A stretch of 64,000 nt of DNA from a bacterium (lineage in GTDB: Bacteria > Pseudomonadota > Alphaproteobacteria > Rhodobacterales > Rhodobacteraceae): assembly GCA_016124195.1 (NCBI GenBank), contig WGOE01000002.1, forward strand, positions 620,001 through 684,000. Reading direction: 5' to 3'. The notes under the pieces were generated by a model. It worked only from the letters and a program-made list of their open reading frames with translations. It made no database searches and was not told the origin of the DNA. A program made the position numbers and the translations under genes. This document shows positions 10,733 through 30,824 of this stretch, piece by piece (the stretch's first letter is position 1; each line of letters opens with the position of its first letter).

Positions 10733-10860
10733 CTCCCAAGCTTGACTTCCGCCAGGTCTCAGGCGCTGCGGCAGGGGACAACCGCTGCCCTCCCCAGCCG
10801 CTCCACAGCCTCTGGCGTGACCTCGTCCCAAGGCTTGCAATTGTTTCCCCTACCCCCGTT

Positions 10861-10880
10861 GCGCTTTGTCCAAGTACTCC
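10861..10880 (-). repeat. GGAGTATT-type intergenic element, minus orientation
   Basis: On the minus strand this reads GGAGTACTTGGACAAAGCGC, preceded by GC-rich hairpin-forming sequence. It matches the cores found near 11861, 15449/15499, 21002, 21051, 23464 and 53109. Confidence 0.6.
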
Positions 10881-11018
10881 CCGCGGAGCGCGCCGAGCCG
10901 GTTGGCCGCAGGCCAGAGGCGAGATATGGTCCTGCGCCGCAGGCGCCCCTTCGAATTGACCCGCGGCGGCGCTGAGACGCCGCTTTGAATATCGTGCCGG
11001 CGCCCCCATATTCGGGGC

Positions 11019-11762
11019 ATGACGCAGCTTCCCGCCCCACTGTCGCATGATCTCGAGCTTGAAGCCGCGGCCCTGGCCCATGCGCAGGCGCAGGTCGACC
11101 GCTCTTTCGTGTCGCGCAGCCGAGCCCTCGGCGCCGGGATCGAGGCGCAATGGGCGCGCCTGCCGGCGCGGCTCAAGGCCGAGGTCGAGGCTCAGGTCGG
11201 TCACGCCCTGCGCGCCGGCCTTGGCATCGCCCGCGCCGCACCGCAATTGGGGCGGCGCGGTCAACGCTGGGCCGTCATCGCCTCGGGTGCGGCGGGAGGG
11301 GCGGTCGGGCTGGCCGGGGCCCTGGCCGAGATGCCCGTCGCACTGATGCTTTTCCTGCAGGCGATCCGGCAAGAGGCGCGCGACGCCGGGCTTGACCCCG
11401 ACCGCCCCGGCGTGCGGCTTGCCACGCTGGACATTCTGGCCAGCGGACGGGCGGTTGCGGCCTCTGAAGCGCTGGACCCGGCCTTCGTCTCGGGCCGGCT
11501 GGCGCTGGCCGGGCCGACGCTGTCGGGCTGGATCGCCCGGGCCGCGCCGCGTCTGGTGCCGGTGCTGGGGCAGCGGTTTGCGGCTTCGGCCGTGCCCTTG
11601 GTGGGCGCGCTGGGCGGTGCCGTTCTGAATGCCGCCTGGCTTGACCAGTACCGCAGGCTCGCCCGCATCCGGTTTCGACTGATGGTCCTGGCCGAACATC
11701 ACGGCACCGAGGCCGTCCTGTCGGCCTTTGCCCGGGCGCAGGCCCTGCCGATGCGGGACTGA
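11019..11762 (+). CDS. EcsC family protein
   Basis: 247 residues. The pattern of an acidic helical N-terminus, a glycine/alanine-rich AAGGAVGLAGALAEMPVALMLFLQAI segment (about residues 90-115) and a second hydrophobic segment near VPLVGALGGAVLNAAWLDQYRRLARIRFRL is typical of the EcsC family. Members associate with membranes. In Bacillus the namesake lies with the EcsAB ABC transporter, but here it is a single gene, as is common in Rhodobacterales. The molecular role is unknown. Confidence 0.8.
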   Translation: MTQLPAPLSHDLELEAAALAHAQAQVDRSFVSRSRALGAGIEAQWARLPARLKAEVEAQVGHALRAGLGIARAAPQLGRRGQRWAVIASGAAGGAVGLAGALAEMPVALMLFLQAIRQEARDAGLDPDRPGVRLATLDILASGRAVAASEALDPAFVSGRLALAGPTLSGWIARAAPRLVPVLGQRFAASAVPLVGALGGAVLNAAWLDQYRRLARIRFRLMVLAEHHGTEAVLSAFARAQALPMRD

Positions 11763-11827
11763 GCCGAAGGCCTTTTCCGAATCGGTTCCGGTAGGGGGCC
11801 ATGCGGGTGGATGGCTTGCGAGAACGG

Positions 11828-11885
11828 CTGGGAGGGCAGGCTGCCCTCCCAGACCCTCCTGCCGAGTATATTCACAAAGTGCAAG
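11828..11885 (+). repeat. GGAGTATT-type intergenic element with terminator-like hairpin
   Basis: Perfect 11-bp stem CTGGGAGGGCA / TGCCCTCCCAG (11828-11838, 11842-11852, loop GGC), followed by ACCCTCCTGCCGAGTATA and TTCACAAAGTGCAAG. It is the plus-orientation form of the element family and lies downstream of the EcsC gene, where it could end transcription. Confidence 0.65.
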
Positions 11886-11927
11886 ACCGGGTCGGCAAGG
11901 GCTAGGCAGCCGCGCCGCGCTGTGATA

Positions 11928-11945
11928 CTTAGCATTATGGCTAAG
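11928..11945. promoter_or_regulatory. palindrome across the ArsR start codon, likely autoregulatory operator
   Basis: CTTAGC-ATTATG-GCTAAG, perfect 6-bp arms with a 6-bp centre that contains the ATG at 11937. GATACT just upstream (11924-11929) could be a -10 box, which would give a leaderless or nearly leaderless transcript. An ArsR dimer bound here would block both. Confidence 0.55.
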
Positions 11946-12290
11946 CATGACGCGGATCTTTCCCTGATCTTCCAGGCGCTGTCGGACCCGACGCGGCGCG
12001 CGATGCTGGCGCGGATCGGGCGGGGGGCGATGGCGGTCAGCGACCTCGCGCAGCCGACCGGCCTCGCCCTGCCCACGGTGATGCGGCATCTGGCGGTGCT
12101 GGAAGGGGCGGCGCTGATCACCAGCGAAAAGACCGGACGGACGCGGCTGTGCCGGGCGGTGCCCCAGACGATTGAAGCCGCGATGGGATGGCTGGCCGAG
12201 CAGCAGGCCGTCTGGGAGGCGCGGGCCGACCGGCTTGAGGATTATGTAACCCAACTGATGGCGGAGCAGAAGAATGACGACAGATCTTGA
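11937..12290 (+). CDS. ArsR-family transcriptional regulator
   Basis: 117-residue winged helix protein. LIFQALSDPTRRAMLARI is the classic ArsR N-terminal block, followed by the HTH VSDLAQPTGLALPTVMRHLAVLEGAALI. The CxC metal site of arsenic-sensing members is absent, as in the subgroup that pairs with an AHSA1/SRPBCC gene. That partner follows with a 17-base overlap. A palindrome covers the start codon. The signal is unknown. Confidence 0.9.
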   Translation: MAKHDADLSLIFQALSDPTRRAMLARIGRGAMAVSDLAQPTGLALPTVMRHLAVLEGAALITSEKTGRTRLCRAVPQTIEAAMGWLAEQQAVWEARADRLEDYVTQLMAEQKNDDRS

Positions 12291-12771
12291 CCCCGAGCTT
12301 GACCTGGAACTGGTGCGCGACCTCAAGGCGCCGCGTTCCGTGCTGTGGACCTGCTGGACCGACCCGGAGCATTTGCCGAAATGGTTCGTGCCCAAGCCGC
12401 ACAAGGTGGTGGCCTGCGATCTGGACCTGCGCCCAGGCGGCGCCTGCAGCACGACCTTCGACGTCGACGGCACGCTGATGGAGAACAAGGGCGTCTATCT
12501 GGAGGTGATCCCCGGCGAGAAGCTGGTTTTCACCGACACCTATCAGGCCGGCTGGAAGCCTGCGCCCGACCCTTTCATGACCGCCATCATCACCTTCGAG
12601 GACGTGGCCCCCGGTGTCACCCGCTACCGCGCCGTGGTGCGCCATCGCAGCAAGGAGGCCGCAGCCTCGCACCGCGACATGGGGTTTTTCGACGGTTGGG
12701 GCACGGTGGCCGGCCAGTTGGAGGCCTATGCCCAGGACCTCGCGGCGCGCGGGGCCGTTTCACGGGTCTGA
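12274..12771 (+). CDS. SRPBCC / AHSA1-type protein
   Basis: 165 residues of the START-like SRPBCC fold. Blocks RDLKAPRSVLWTCWTDPEHLPKWF, LRPGGACSTTFDVDG and a late GFFDGWGTVAGQLEAYAQ are standard for AHSA1-domain proteins. These bind hydrophobic ligands. In the common ArsR-AHSA1 arrangement the role is unknown, sometimes linked to toxic-compound response. The 17-base overlap with the ArsR gene shows translational coupling. Confidence 0.88.
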   Translation: MTTDLDPELDLELVRDLKAPRSVLWTCWTDPEHLPKWFVPKPHKVVACDLDLRPGGACSTTFDVDGTLMENKGVYLEVIPGEKLVFTDTYQAGWKPAPDPFMTAIITFEDVAPGVTRYRAVVRHRSKEAAASHRDMGFFDGWGTVAGQLEAYAQDLAARGAVSRV

Positions 12772-26135: not shown

Positions 26136-26543
26136 ACGGACAGAATCAACGCTGCCTTGTAAGGCGGGCTTGCGAGCGAAACTTATCCTATCCCGCCAAG
26201 CCCCGCCATTTCATGGGAAATCGCGGTCCCATCCACAGGGCGGACCGCTTCATCCACCCCCTTGTCCACAGCCCTCCGCATAGCGACCTAAACGCCACAG
26301 CTAGACAGTCATTCCGGGTCAAGCACAAAATCTAGCGCGGATATGTAAAAAATTCGTTGCTGATCCCCAGATCTTGCGTCAGTTTGAAGAGGTCGGGGCC
26401 AAGCCGGGAAACAGGGCGCGCGCTGACGGGGACAGGACTGGCAACATACGAAACCTCCTGAAAGGAGAACGCGCTCCGCAGCGGGCGTGGCTCGTGTTGT
26501 GCTGCCCGTCTCCGGGATGGCAAAACATGGAGTTACGGGGCAG
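26136..26543. other. 408-base leader region upstream of nrdJ
   Basis: No protein gene is seen. TTGTCCACA (26262-26270) is one base from the DnaA box TTATCCACA. A small stem CTCCT-GAA-AGGAG occupies 26455-26467. I looked for a cobalamin riboswitch, expected for some B12-enzyme genes, and did not find its B12-box. A canonical NrdR box pair was also not recognised. The region probably holds the nrdJ promoter and a long 5' UTR. Confidence 0.5.
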
Positions 26544-29500
26544 ATGAAGATCGAGCGGAAATTCACTTCGGCAGAGACCGGAGCCTATGGCGCGTTGGCG
26601 TTTCAGCTGACCACATCCGAAATTCGCAATCCTGACGGCAAGATCGTCTTCCGCAACGAGGCGGTCGAGGTGCCCGAGGGGTGGAGTCAGGTCGCAGCCG
26701 ACGTGCTGGCGCAGAAGTATTTCCGCAAGGCCGGCGTGCCTGCGATCACCAAGCGCGTGCAGGAAAAGGGCGTGCCGCGCTTCCTGTGGCGCCACGTTCC
26801 CGATCTGGAGGCGCTGGAGCAACTGCCCGCCGACAAGCGCTATGTCGGTGAAACCTCGGCCAAGCAGGTCTTTGACCGTCTGGTCGGCGCCTGGGCCTAT
26901 TGGGGCTGGAAGGGCGGCTATTTCACCACCGAGGCCGATGCCAAGACCTATTACGACGAAATGCGCTTCATGCTGGCCCGCCAGATGGCCGCGCCGAACT
27001 CGCCGCAATGGTTCAACACCGGGCTGCATTGGGCTTACGGAATCGACGGCCCGAGCCAGGGGCACTACTACGTCGATTATCAGTCCAAGGTGCTGACCAA
27101 GTCGAATTCGGCCTATGAACATCCCCAGCCGCATGCCTGCTTCATCCAGTCGGTGCGCGACGATCTGGTGGGCGACGGCGGGATCATGGACCTGTGGGTG
27201 CGCGAGGCGCGTCTGTTCAAATATGGCTCGGGCACCGGCACCAACTTTTCCTCGCTGCGGGGCGAGGGCGAAAAGCTTTCGGGTGGCGGCAAGTCCTCGG
27301 GCCTGATGGGGTTCCTCAAGATCGGCGACCGGGCGGCCGGGGCCATCAAATCGGGCGGCACAACGCGGCGCGCGGCCAAGATGGTGATCTGCGACATGGA
27401 TCACCCCGATGTCGAGGCCTTCATCAACTGGAAGGTGATCGAGGAACAGAAGGTCGCCTCGCTGGTGGCCGGTTCCAAGGCGCATGAAGCGCGGCTGAAC
27501 GAGATCTTTGCCGCGATCCGCACCTGGGACGGCTCGTCCGAGGATTCGGTCGATCCGGCCAAGAACCCCGCGCTCAAGGCCGCCATCAGGGCCGCCAAGA
27601 AGGCGTTGATCCCCGACACCTATACGTTCCGCATCCTGCAATATGCCAAGCAGGGCTTCACCTCGATCGAATTCCCGACCTATGACACCGATTGGGATTC
27701 CGAGGCCTATATGACGGTGTCGGGCCAGAATTCGAACAACTCGGTCCGTGTGACCGACGCTTTCCTGAAGGCGGTCAGGAATGACGAACCCTGGGAACTG
27801 ATCCGCCGCACCGATGGCAAGGTCGCCAAGACCGTCAAGGCGCGCGAGCTGTGGGACCAGATCGGCCATGCCGCCTGGGCCTGCGCCGATCCCGGCATCC
27901 AGTTCCACGACACGGTCAACGCCTGGCACACCTGCCCGGAGGATGGCCCGATCCGCGGGTCCAACCCATGCTCGGAATACATGTTCCTTGATGACACGGC
28001 CTGCAACCTGGCCTCGATGAACCTCTTGACCTTCTACAAGGGCGGCAAGTTCGATGCCGAGGCCTATATCCACGCCACGCGGCTCTGGACGCTGACGCTG
28101 GAAATCTCGGTGATGATGGCGCAGTTCCCGTCCAAGGAAATCGCGCAGTTGTCCTATGACTTCCGCACCCTGGGTCTGGGCTATGCCAATATCGGCGGGC
28201 TCCTGATGAACATGGGGATGGGCTATGACAGCAAGGAAGGCCGCGCGCTCTGCGGCGCTTTGACCGCGCTGATGACCGGGATTTCCTATGCCACCTCGGC
28301 CGAGATGGCCAAGGAACTGGGCGCCTTCCCGTCCTATGACCGCAACGCAGCCCATATGCTGCGCGTGATCCGCAACCACCGCGCCGCGGCGCATGGTTCG
28401 GGCGCTTATGAGGGTCTGAACGTGGATCCGGTCACGCTGGATCATCGCAACTGCCCGGACCAGACGCTGGTGGCGCTGGCCCGATCGGCCTGGGACGAGG
28501 CGTTGGCCTTGGGCGAGGCGCATGGCTTCCGCAACGCGCAGACCACCGTCATCGCCCCCACCGGCACCATCGGCCTGGTGATGGATTGCGACACGACCGG
28601 GATCGAGCCCGACTTCGCGCTGGTCAAGTTCAAGAAGCTGGCCGGCGGCGGTTATTTCAAGATCATCAACCAGTCGGTGCCCGCCGCCCTGGAGACGCTG
28701 GGCTACCCCAGCCACCAGATCGCCGAGATCGTGGCCCATGCGGTCGGCCACGGCTCGATCGCGCAGGCGCCGGCGATCAACCACACCTCGCTGATCGGCC
28801 ACGGCTTCGGCCCGCGCGAGATCGAAAAGATCGAAGCCGCGCTGCCCACGGCCTTCGACATCCGCTTCGTCTTCAACCAGTGGACGCTGGGCGAGGATTT
28901 CTGCAAGGGCACGTTGGGTATCCCCGCCGACAAGTTGGCCGATGCCTCGTTTGACCTTCTGCGCCACCTTGGCTTCACCAAGGCGCAGATCGACGCGGCC
29001 AACGATCATGTGTGCGGTACGATGACGCTGGAAGGCGCGCCGTTCCTGAAACAGCACCACTACTCGGTGTTTGATTGCGCCAATCCCTGCGGCAAGACCG
29101 GCAAGCGCTATCTGTCGGTCGAAAGCCACATCCACATGATGGCCGCGGCGCAAAGCTTCATCTCGGGCGCGATTTCCAAGACGATCAACATGCCGAATTC
29201 GGCCACCATCGCCGAGACGCTGGCGGCTTACGAATTGTCGCACAGCCTCGGGATCAAGGCCAACGCGCTGTACCGCGACGGATCGAAACTCAGCCAGCCG
29301 CTCGCCTCGGCGCTGATCGAGGATGACGAGGCGGCCGAAGAGGTTCTGGCCACCGGCTCCAACCAGGAAAAGGCCGCGGTCCTGGCCGAGAAGATCGTGG
29401 AAAAGCTGATCATCAAGGAAGTGATCCGCACCAACCGCGAAAAGCTGCCGGAACGCCGCAAGGGCTATACGCAAAAGGCCATCGTCGGCGGCCACAAGGT

Positions 29501-30224
29501 CTATCTGCGGACCGGCGAATATGGGGACGGCCGTCTGGGCGAGATCTTCATCGACATGCACAAGGAAGGTGCGGGCTTCCGCGCCATGATGAACAACTTC
29601 GCCATCGCGATCTCGGTCGGCCTGCAATACGGCGTGCCCTTGGAGGAATATGTCGAGGCCTTCACCTTCACCCGGTTCGAGCCCGCGGGCATGGTGCAGG
29701 GCAATGACAGCGTGAAGAACGCGACCTCGATCCTCGACTACATCTTCCGGGAACTGGCGATTTCCTACCTCGACCGCACCGATCTGGCCCATGTCAAGCC
29801 GCAGGGCCATTCCTTCGACGACCTCGGCCGCGGCGACGAGGAGGGCAAGCGCAACATCTCGGAGGTCAGCGACGCCGCCGCCAACCGCGGGCTGGAGGTG
29901 ATCAAGCAGATCTCCTCGACCGGCTATCTGAGGAAGCGCGTGCCGCAGGAACTGGTGGTCCTGCAGGGTGGCATGGGGATGACGGGCTTTTCCGGCATGG
30001 GAGGTGATGCGGCCACGGCGCTGAACCTCATGGTGCCCGAAACCGCCCGCTCGGCCGGGGCCACGGCGCTGGCATCGGGCACGGTGACGGTTGATCTGCG
30101 GGTCAAGGCCAAGATGCAGGGCTACGAAGGCGACCCCTGCGGCGAGTGCGGCAACTACACGCTGGTGCGCAACGGCACCTGCATGAAGTGCAACACCTGC
30201 GGCGGCACGAGCGGGTGTAGCTGA
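26544..30224 (+). CDS. nrdJ: adenosylcobalamin-dependent ribonucleotide reductase (class II)
   Basis: 1226 residues from ATG 26544 (GGGG upstream; ATG 26520 and earlier starts give non-conserved leaders). It reduces ribonucleotides to deoxyribonucleotides using coenzyme B12, without oxygen dependence. [21 protein letters not shown] is the active-site and specificity region, and [20 protein letters not shown] is the catalytic loop of the long NrdJ type. The C-terminus ends in a Cys-rich zinc-ribbon-like tail ([21 protein letters not shown]) that carries the redox cysteines. The last 83 bases including the stop are repeated exactly at 30621-30703, so the gene's 3' end has been copied. nrdA/nrdB are not in the window. 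Confidence 0.97.
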
Positions 30225-30226
30225 AG
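30144..30226 (+). repeat. 83-bp direct repeat, copy 1 (3' end of nrdJ)
   Basis: Identical over all 83 bases to 30621-30703. It encodes the last 26 residues of NrdJ (ECGNY to SGCS), the stop, and two to three bases beyond. The match breaks sharply on both sides. Confidence 0.97.
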
Positions 30227-30620
30227 GAATTGAGGTTGGAGCGGATGGGTACCAGCCATCCGCCCCTGCCTACCCGCGTAACAGTGCACGTTGCGGGGCA
30301 TGCGGTCTCGACCATGTAAGGCCGACGGTTCAGGTGGCCATCGGCTCGGGCCGTGCGCAATGGCGTGTTCGACTATACAGGATTTTTCCCCAAGGTATTG
30401 GGCTTTCCTGTGGATATCGAGGTGTTTTCATGGCGACGAACCCCCCCAAAGGTGATGGGCATCGGAATGGTCCGGTCAAAGGCCGTACTCAGGTCTTCAA
30501 CCCGAAGACTGAGACGTGGACGAAGCGAGACTCCGATTCTGGACGTTTTATGGACGGAAAGAAGGACGGCACTCCTTTCAAAGGAGTGACAAAGGAAAAG
30601 TGAAGAGCAAAACTGACAGT
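30227..30620. mobile_element. 394-base lower-GC insert between the two copies of the nrdJ end
   Basis: This segment separates the two 83-bp repeats and carries one 57-residue gene. It is less GC-rich than its surroundings and begins with a hairpin GCGGATGG / CCATCCGC (30241-30248, 30256-30263). No integrase or transposase is present. The arrangement is what remains if an element integrated at the nrdJ 3' end and brought its own copy of that end, but the mechanism is inferred. Confidence 0.45.
30430..30603 (+). CDS. 57-residue conserved small protein of unknown function
   Basis: ATG 30430 has GAGG seven bases upstream. The protein is short, basic and hydrophilic, with the segments NPPKGDGHRNGPVKGRTQVF, NPKTETWTKRD and GRFMDGKKDGTPFKGVTKEK. 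I recall small proteins of this pattern (NPKTGxWxKRDxxxGRFMD) scattered across Proteobacteria without assigned function. It has no membrane or signal segment. It is the only gene in the insert at the end of nrdJ, which hints that it belongs to a mobile or horizontally acquired unit. Confidence 0.7.
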   Translation: MATNPPKGDGHRNGPVKGRTQVFNPKTETWTKRDSDSGRFMDGKKDGTPFKGVTKEK

Positions 30621-30703
30621 GAGTGCGGCAACTACACGCTGGTGCGCAACGGCACCTGCATGAAGTGCAACACCTGCGGCGGCACGAGCGGGTGTAGCTG
30701 AAG
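30621..30703 (+). repeat. 83-bp direct repeat, copy 2 (duplicated nrdJ end)
   Basis: Exact copy of 30144-30226. An open frame from 30516 runs into it in the NrdJ frame and would give a 61-residue protein ending in the NrdJ zinc-ribbon tail, but this frame overlaps the 57-residue gene and is probably not real. A strong terminator follows 85 bases later. Confidence 0.97.
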
Positions 30704-30788
30704 TTGCACGCTCCGGCTGTGGCTGCCTGCAAGTAGCCCCACCCGGCGTGTGACGGATGTGTCCGGCGCGTCAAGTTCTGGATATGAC

Positions 30789-30824
30789 AAGCCGGCGCAG
30801 GTCAGCCTGCGCCGGCTTTTGATT
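30789..30824 (+). terminator. strong rho-independent terminator (original nrdJ terminator)
   Basis: Perfect 13-bp stem AAGCCGGCGCAGG / CCTGCGCCGGCTT (30789-30801, 30806-30818) with loop TCAG, then TTGATT. It lies 85 bases after copy 2 of the nrdJ end, suggesting that copy 2 marks the ancestral end of nrdJ. Confidence 0.9.

Follow-up and report, generated by a model that had tools for sequence, protein, structure and literature searches.

We analysed a window of 64,000 nucleotides from a draft genome (18 contigs) of the Rhodobacteraceae, in which nrdJ, the gene for a class II (B12-dependent) ribonucleotide reductase, occupies positions 26487 to 30224 of the forward strand, its start codon being putative. 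The open reading frame (ORF) was assigned by Pfam matches to Ribonuc_red_lgC, Ribonuc_red_2_N and TSCPD. All further features described here for the window are on the same strand. The end of nrdJ is part of an 83-bp direct repeat (D1), whose copies at 30144-30226 and 30621-30703 are 100% identical and spaced 477 bp start to start. By repeat and flank comparison, the inner copy is the coding end of the gene: it is in frame with nrdJ, encodes its Cys-rich (zinc-ribbon-like) tail and overshoots the stop codon by 2 nt. The outer copy, an orphan nrdJ 3' end, lies 394 bp downstream. The 394-bp insert between them (30227-30620) begins 2 nt 3' of the nrdJ stop codon and consists of a first noncoding part of ca. 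205 nt, belonging to a structured leader RNA (30222-30432), followed by a 57-aa ORF (P0001, 30430-30603) that was missing from the initial annotation of this DNA. A terminator-like inverted repeat (I1, 30784-30823, 89% complementary) starts about 80 nt after the outer copy, where a strong terminator had been proposed; judged from the sequence, this arrangement would put the insert's gene within the nrdJ transcription unit.

The exact duplication reported in the initial annotation was borne out by our repeat search and by the genome record, where the same two-copy layout is found at G000:C5:650144-650703, and the sequences beyond both copies differ as described there. The repeat reached a local score of 162 compared with a maximum of 27 in 60 shuffles, which excludes chance. 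Within the genome, the whole duplicated stretch is present once and the insert is continuous and coding. The copies need not be recent despite their 100% identity, as nrdJ varies little between species over its last 81 nt: among 57 tails, including the window's own, median identity to the window was 92.6% and the best other tail reached 98.8%. The median for the preceding 81 nt was 72.8% in an ungapped comparison, which becomes meaningless farther upstream. All 12 other genomes of the genus that were tested carry a single nrdJ tail with nothing resembling the insert behind it, and no genus relative shares the sequence after the outer copy above shuffles by a clear margin.

The 57-aa ORF matched the PADLOC profile PDC-S38 over its full length (residues 1-57 of 57, E 1.9e-32) and PHROG 12550, which has no function assigned in PHROG (E 1.8e-17), while Pfam and NCBIfam returned no match. 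According to the available part of the source, PDC denotes a phage defence candidate in PADLOC (PMC11514479). On the strength of this profile match, we regard the ORF as a candidate phage-defence gene. Its predicted fold is small and three-stranded, of moderate confidence (pLDDT 79, pTM 0.54), and had no match in the PDB at E 0.001; our literature search found no paper naming PDC-S38. Using tblastn with the 57-aa protein, matches were found in 60 of 72,556 plasmid records and 16 of 50,697 phage records. In genome contigs, at least 590 relatives were confirmed, and the best 80 of them, which were kept, come from several phyla as indicated by their titles. Neighbouring genes in the five records inspected encode TIR, SIR2, RloB and retron-HNH proteins, multiubiquitin/E2/ThiF systems, WYL and Abi proteins or phage lysogeny functions. 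PDC-S38 thus appears to be a widespread small gene, often located near defence genes in these five records. Separately, we observed by eye that in 15 of the best 80 loci (L049, L056, L061 and L070 among them) PDC-S38 lies at most 1.5 kb behind the end of an HsdS-like (type I restriction) gene; these loci are mostly from Bacillota and Bacteroidota. On the 11-kb Serratia plasmid pSmN45 (L031), a WYL regulator and PDC-S38 occur as repeated blocks in three places with the same protein accessions.

A profile search of 394 genomes of the family detected PDC-S38 in 15. It is found behind nrdJ in four of these (G000, the window genome, G023, G285 and G292) and behind carB in six (G063, G108, G135, G221, G250 and G342), and a decayed remnant with a stop codon sits directly behind carB in G088. 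The other four occurrences are between convergent genes (G219), in multiubiquitin-type operons (G034 and G332) and, as a weak match, beside rpsO (G247). A genus search added one further case behind nrdJ (G298). Of the best 80 among the at least 590 relatives, 12 have nrdJ upstream, comprising 11 with an alphaproteobacterial tail and one Nevskiaceae locus (L099) whose upstream protein was assigned to nrdJ by blastp clustering. Since nrdJ precedes PDC-S38 in this many relatives, the association with the nrdJ 3' end is not peculiar to the window genome. Two of the loci (L050 and L062) have the order nrdJ, an ORF with a HEIGH motif (M78-like by eye), PDC-S38. None of the 11 nrdJ-PDC-S38 loci (L099 left out) contains a second tail.

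Counterparts of the insert's noncoding part follow nrdJ in G285, in G298 and in a contig from the virus collection that starts inside an nrdJ tail. We built a covariance model (R1) of this leader. In an alignment of 13 sequences, which was itself fitted to the model, 27 of 42 base pairs had changed on both sides and 88.8% of cells were paired. None of 500 shuffles, which do not keep relatedness, reached any of five measures, and sliding the pair partners by one to three columns left at most 12 pairs changed on both sides. The first hairpin (helix 1, 30234-30271), with arms at 30234-30248 and 30257-30271, shows compensatory changes in relatives. No Rfam family (4227 searched, with sources covering 8 of the 13 leaders) matched the leader; the only two matches listed, both to miRNA families, scored far under the threshold and did not lie in the leaders. 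A literature search likewise found no paper joining nrdJ with the term "RNA motif" in Rhodobacterales. Five kinds of small ORF follow the leader, members without a Pfam run being grouped by eye: PDC-S38 (window, G285 and G298), a 45-aa lysine-alanine-rich protein (L230, G047 and G159), a family of ca. 70 aa ending in SNP(N/D)GS...NLG (G067, G206 and G184), an Mrr_N-type ORF (G126 and G204, Pfam run on G204 only) and a GrlR-type ORF (G182 and G191, Pfam run on G182 only). A second tail was absent from 10 of 12 leader loci tested (L230 left out), so that it is either not a constant part of these loci or has decayed. Model R1 was also run on the loci of 11 nrdJ-PDC-S38 relatives and four others and matched only the window. 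There is no such leader in G023, G292, G376 and G642, where 6-12 nt separate the nrdJ stop codon from the start of the cargo. As a separate observation, the loci L169, L181, L044, L192 and L196 share, with variants, a conserved stretch before the nrdJ terminator (GCGGGTGCGCTCGCCC ... CGCAGGC ... GAGCGGTA ... GAGCCTGATCAGCGAAAC), which may be another structured RNA of nrdJ; Rfam gave no match to it in L169 and L181.

A search of related genomes, which the initial annotation had proposed as a check, turned up both further nrdJ-tail repeats and sites with a single copy. Using a 37-aa nrdJ tail as query, 364 of the 394 family genomes, which are mostly drafts, gave a match and nine gave two. Inspection identified adjacent second tails in the window genome, G376, G037 and G401. 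A further one of 38 bp in G047 is visible at the DNA level only. Since such short remnants escape the protein search, our counts are lower bounds. Across the wider class, the query matched 242 of 387 genomes, four of them twice, and besides the window genome this search found an adjacent second tail in G642, a member of another family. Several candidates were not counted: a 55-bp repeat in G032 whose copies flank a run of N and which is a probable scaffolding artefact, weak second matches (41-47% identity) in other ORFs of G171 and G189, the latter on another contig, and an 18-bp tail-like stretch in L169 with a score of 26, where shuffles reached up to 24. We also left out G464 and G648, whose contigs end or start inside nrdJ tails, perhaps through the same event. 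In a more sensitive test, 6 of 58 nrdJ loci (window, G376, G037, G401, G642 and G047) had second tails well above shuffles, all six being known beforehand and five included for that reason. Each of the six second tails ends exactly at the stop codon. For carB, a 108-bp second tail with 84% identity was found in G108, where the two tails frame a Cys-rich ORF of ca. 70 aa and PDC-S38. Flanking repeats were detected in 6 of 92 PDC-S38 loci, lying at a gene end only in the window and in G108. To gauge the background, we examined 1,088 gene ends across 1.92 Mb of loci. Repeats ending at a gene end were limited to the four nrdJ cases selected in advance, carB of G108 and a single 22-bp case, and four further short repeats did not end at one. 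This control is only rough because the longest overlapping frames were chosen and shadow ORFs displaced some true genes, an effect by which the list omits the window's own nrdJ repeat.

The recurrence of this layout in relatives, with repeats of ca. 40-120 bp and about 0.35-1.0 kb of cargo, bears out one suggestion of the initial annotation, a tiny mobile unit. The cargo in G376, G037, G401 and G642 consists of HExxH proteins, which Pfam identified as Peptidase_M78 in the last three, the G376 protein scoring below any cut-off.

The origin of the inner tail is best seen in G642. Its nrdJ has a GC3 of 67-100% (12-codon windows) up to codon -76 and of 17-50% from there through the stop codon, the switch falling at codons about -70 to -64. 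The outer tail is open from codon -65, aligns to nrdJ of G464, a member of the same family, from codon -55 and has a GC3 of 75-92% over most of its length and 50-67% in its last codons. The tails are 74.6% identical over 134 bp aligned by BLAST, and 39 of 64 differences within 60 codons are at third positions. This switch lies no more than about ten codons from where the outer tail begins. The cargo and a 3' end with foreign codon usage would thus have entered the native gene at more or less a single position, which indicates that in G642 the inner end was imported with the cargo and the native end left behind it. A point to the contrary is that, at the protein level, the inner tail is closer to the G464 tail than the outer one, for which decay of the orphan may account. 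Relatives, with G642 as the best case, thereby support the proposal that insertions at nrdJ 3' ends bring a replacement end, and such an end would account for nrdJ staying intact. The window does not discriminate between origins of the inner tail since its two copies are identical; the same holds for G401. That the outer copy is the original end, as the initial annotation had favoured, is likewise supported in G642 by codon usage and in G376 by 3' sequence common to G171 and G032 (compared by eye), not by the window itself. By analogy with these two, the outer copy in the window is probably the original end.

We propose that the insert is a homology-guided tail cassette that entered without an integrase and now separates the main part of nrdJ from the gene's former 3' end, a reading based on sequence comparison to which we assign a probability of about one half. 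Such a cassette would supply nrdJ with a replacement 3' end and bring along a structured leader RNA and one small cargo gene, which in the window is PDC-S38. The unit would have come in as DNA of another bacterium in which cargo was already attached to nrdJ, with the nrdJ 3' end serving as docking site. Because the nrdJ tail is well conserved, homology could guide the left junction, and the right junction would be formed by non-homologous joining at the same break. The layout fits such a pair of junctions, the event itself being read from the layout. This could happen if a double-strand break were mended by one-sided invasion followed by end joining, or if a fragment were taken up, for instance via a gene transfer agent. 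Gene transfer agents occur in Rhodobacterales and would be a natural vehicle for tail cassettes. The outcome would be an intact nrdJ with the cargo ahead of its terminator and an orphaned old end, leaving the essential gene unharmed. Cargo would consist of small, swappable accessory genes, several of defence type. A donor molecule carrying an nrdJ tail with cargo was not found in the plasmid, phage and virus collections. Plasmid and phage matches to the tail were ribonucleotide reductase genes or unannotated places, and the sole match in the virus collection, the contig that starts inside an nrdJ tail, has the leader, a small ORF and a bacterial-looking flank.

The layout might alternatively result from site-specific integration, with the gene tail as attachment site and a recombinase that acted in trans or has since been lost. 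An integrase would produce what is seen in G642, insertion at about one point with a replacement 3' end, and nrdJ has been used repeatedly. However, as the initial annotation had noted for the window, there is no integrase, and no recombinase was found among the insert ORFs of the window, G376, G037, G401, G642 and carB of G108 either. Pfam was run on the main ORFs of the first five and the Cys-rich ORF of G108 was judged via its G221 relative; the main ORFs gave PDC-S38, M78-type peptidases or no Pfam match. The repeats also start at different distances from the stop codon, namely ca. 12 codons in G047, 19 in G401, 27 in the window, 28 in G037, 41 in G376 and 55-65 in G642, and no shared core was seen when the insertion points were compared by eye. 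This speaks against the single site-specific attachment site that the initial annotation had assumed. Its other suggestion, the core of a larger decayed element, found no support either: at the sensitivity of the 37-aa search, none of the 364 tail-matching family genomes has a larger element between two tails on one contig, a result that does not extend to G110 and G319, whose second tails sit on another contig. Site-specific integration therefore seems unlikely to us, if still a serious contender. Variable insertion points and the lack of an integrase fit homology-guided break repair better than an attachment site, and the argument for insertion at a point draws on one clear case, G642.

Alternatively, the host's own tail may have been copied on entry of the gene, giving a long target duplication as for restriction-modification units. 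Variable repeats of ca. 40-120 bp without a recombinase and the exact identity of the copies in the window and in G401 are compatible with this, and published target duplications are, in the part of the literature available to us, long, variable and of the order of 100 bp (PMC3874152). For G642 it is contradicted by tails that are only 74.6% identical and differ in codon usage over most of their length. For the same reason we set back local duplication followed by decay as a general account. In G376, G037 and carB of G108, 14 of 17 differences between the copies are at third positions (4/4, 3/3 and 7/10, respectively, the last after removing the first eight non-homologous bases by hand), so the copies were probably not identical at the start. 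When the two carB tails of G108 were compared with 13 relatives, the inner one was closer in 11 and tied in two, a comparison biased by the eight non-homologous bases within the outer sequence and therefore left out of account. Altogether, we judge a long target duplication rather improbable as the common origin of these repeats.

It could also be argued that leader and cargo are an old, vertically inherited extension of the nrdJ operon and that the outer tail stems from an unrelated later rearrangement. Consistent with this, all ten leaders that model R1 found in 243 family genomes lie directly behind the nrdJ stop codon, and G285 and G298, the latter of the same genus as the window, carry the leader without a second tail. 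Yet only these ten of 243 genomes gave the leader, with search filters that lose weak matches, and five kinds of cargo follow it. The PDC-S38 of the window is moreover only 42-55% identical to the nrdJ-linked ones of its family (G292, G285, G298 and G023) and as much as 86% identical to relatives from other bacteria among the matches listed, so that leader and cargo seem to have different histories. We therefore give this explanation little weight. An assembly artefact, that is, a contig-end overlap kept twice, might be invoked for a draft genome and probably accounts for the repeat in G032, but it is very improbable here given a continuous, coding insert within a stretch present once in the genome and the same layout in G642 (a 4.79-Mb contig, 3 contigs in total) and G376 (2 contigs).

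Returning to the tail cassettes, those of the carB type carry a different conserved leader with some covarying pairs. In an alignment of six sequences (five from behind carB plus G219, with G135 left out) and with no shuffle control, 16 of 25 pairs had both partners altered in one or more of the sequences. A mixed alignment of this second leader type (A5) was too poor to use. The carB end also yielded several observations in their own right. The Cys-rich ORF (..NGDHEVH....CHTR) precedes PDC-S38 in carB-type cassettes, for example at 9749-9958 of L041 and in G219. It gave no match in Pfam (G221 protein) or in PADLOC (two references, of which the one from L037 may be off since that locus was read on the other strand). 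In L035 (G108), an ORF at ca. 10800-12600 behind the outer carB tail has a start that resembles a DNA-cytosine methyltransferase by eye, possibly a second cassette, of restriction-modification type, in tandem at this end. In L214 (G106), a 217-aa ORF begins 9 nt behind the carB stop codon and matches a PADLOC TIR effector (E 4.6e-10), making it a candidate for further defence cargo; an open frame occupies the corresponding position in G119. In G049 (L207/L208), a second carB 3' part lies within a 305-aa ORF 2.1 Mb from the full gene and is followed by similar post-stop sequence, and G111 also has a second carB match.

More tentatively, the 3' ends of nrdJ and carB may serve as docking sites shared by a new class of mobile cassettes that need no integrase and use a gene tail as homology handle. 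Each would bring a replacement tail, often with a structured RNA, of one family behind nrdJ and of another in the carB type, and one or two swappable mini-genes, several of them of defence type. The RNA would belong to what makes the unit work, by controlling the cargo during infection or by forming an RNA-protein defence with the small basic PDC-S38. We consider this wider proposal possible, if doubtful. It bears on the open question of how tiny single-gene defence systems move without a recombinase. If true, the tail of an essential gene would serve as homology handle and the incoming piece would repair the gene it enters, which is a simple and testable route. Reading what follows nrdJ and carB would then be a way to find unknown defence genes. 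The leader itself is a structured RNA that matches no Rfam family and has interchangeable genes behind it. Our literature search on small cassettes and integration at nrdJ found no title on point; the position of PDC-S38 behind nrdJ and carB and the leader RNAs emerged from the present analysis.

In comparison with known systems, tail cassettes share features with several and would coincide with none. SCC elements at rlmH are integrative islands that target the 3' end of a gene and bring a replacement end. Tail cassettes resemble such islands in the replacement end, the intact gene and the old end at the far side, whereas they are about 0.35-1.0 kb in size, show no integrase and have no fixed insertion point. 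Integron gene cassettes pair a constant noncoding element with small genes that are exchanged at a single location. The same combination is seen here, although tail cassettes would dock by a gene tail. Restriction-modification units, according to the accessible parts of later accounts, can insert with long and variable target duplication (Nobusato et al. 2000, via PMC3874152 and PMC3031569). As far as these accounts go, both cases have a small defence-type gene, no recombinase and long, variable direct repeats; in contrast, the repeats of tail cassettes are gene 3' ends including the stop codon, and the inner copy keeps the gene intact. Foreign codon usage (G642), an optional structured leader RNA and exchanged cargo further set tail cassettes apart. 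Finally, homology-facilitated illegitimate recombination, as described in the portion of the source at hand, combines homology at one end with illegitimate joining at the other (PMC3240628). The junctions proposed here would follow the same principle but differ from that description in that the joint lies at about the same point of the recipient and the old tail is left behind the cargo.
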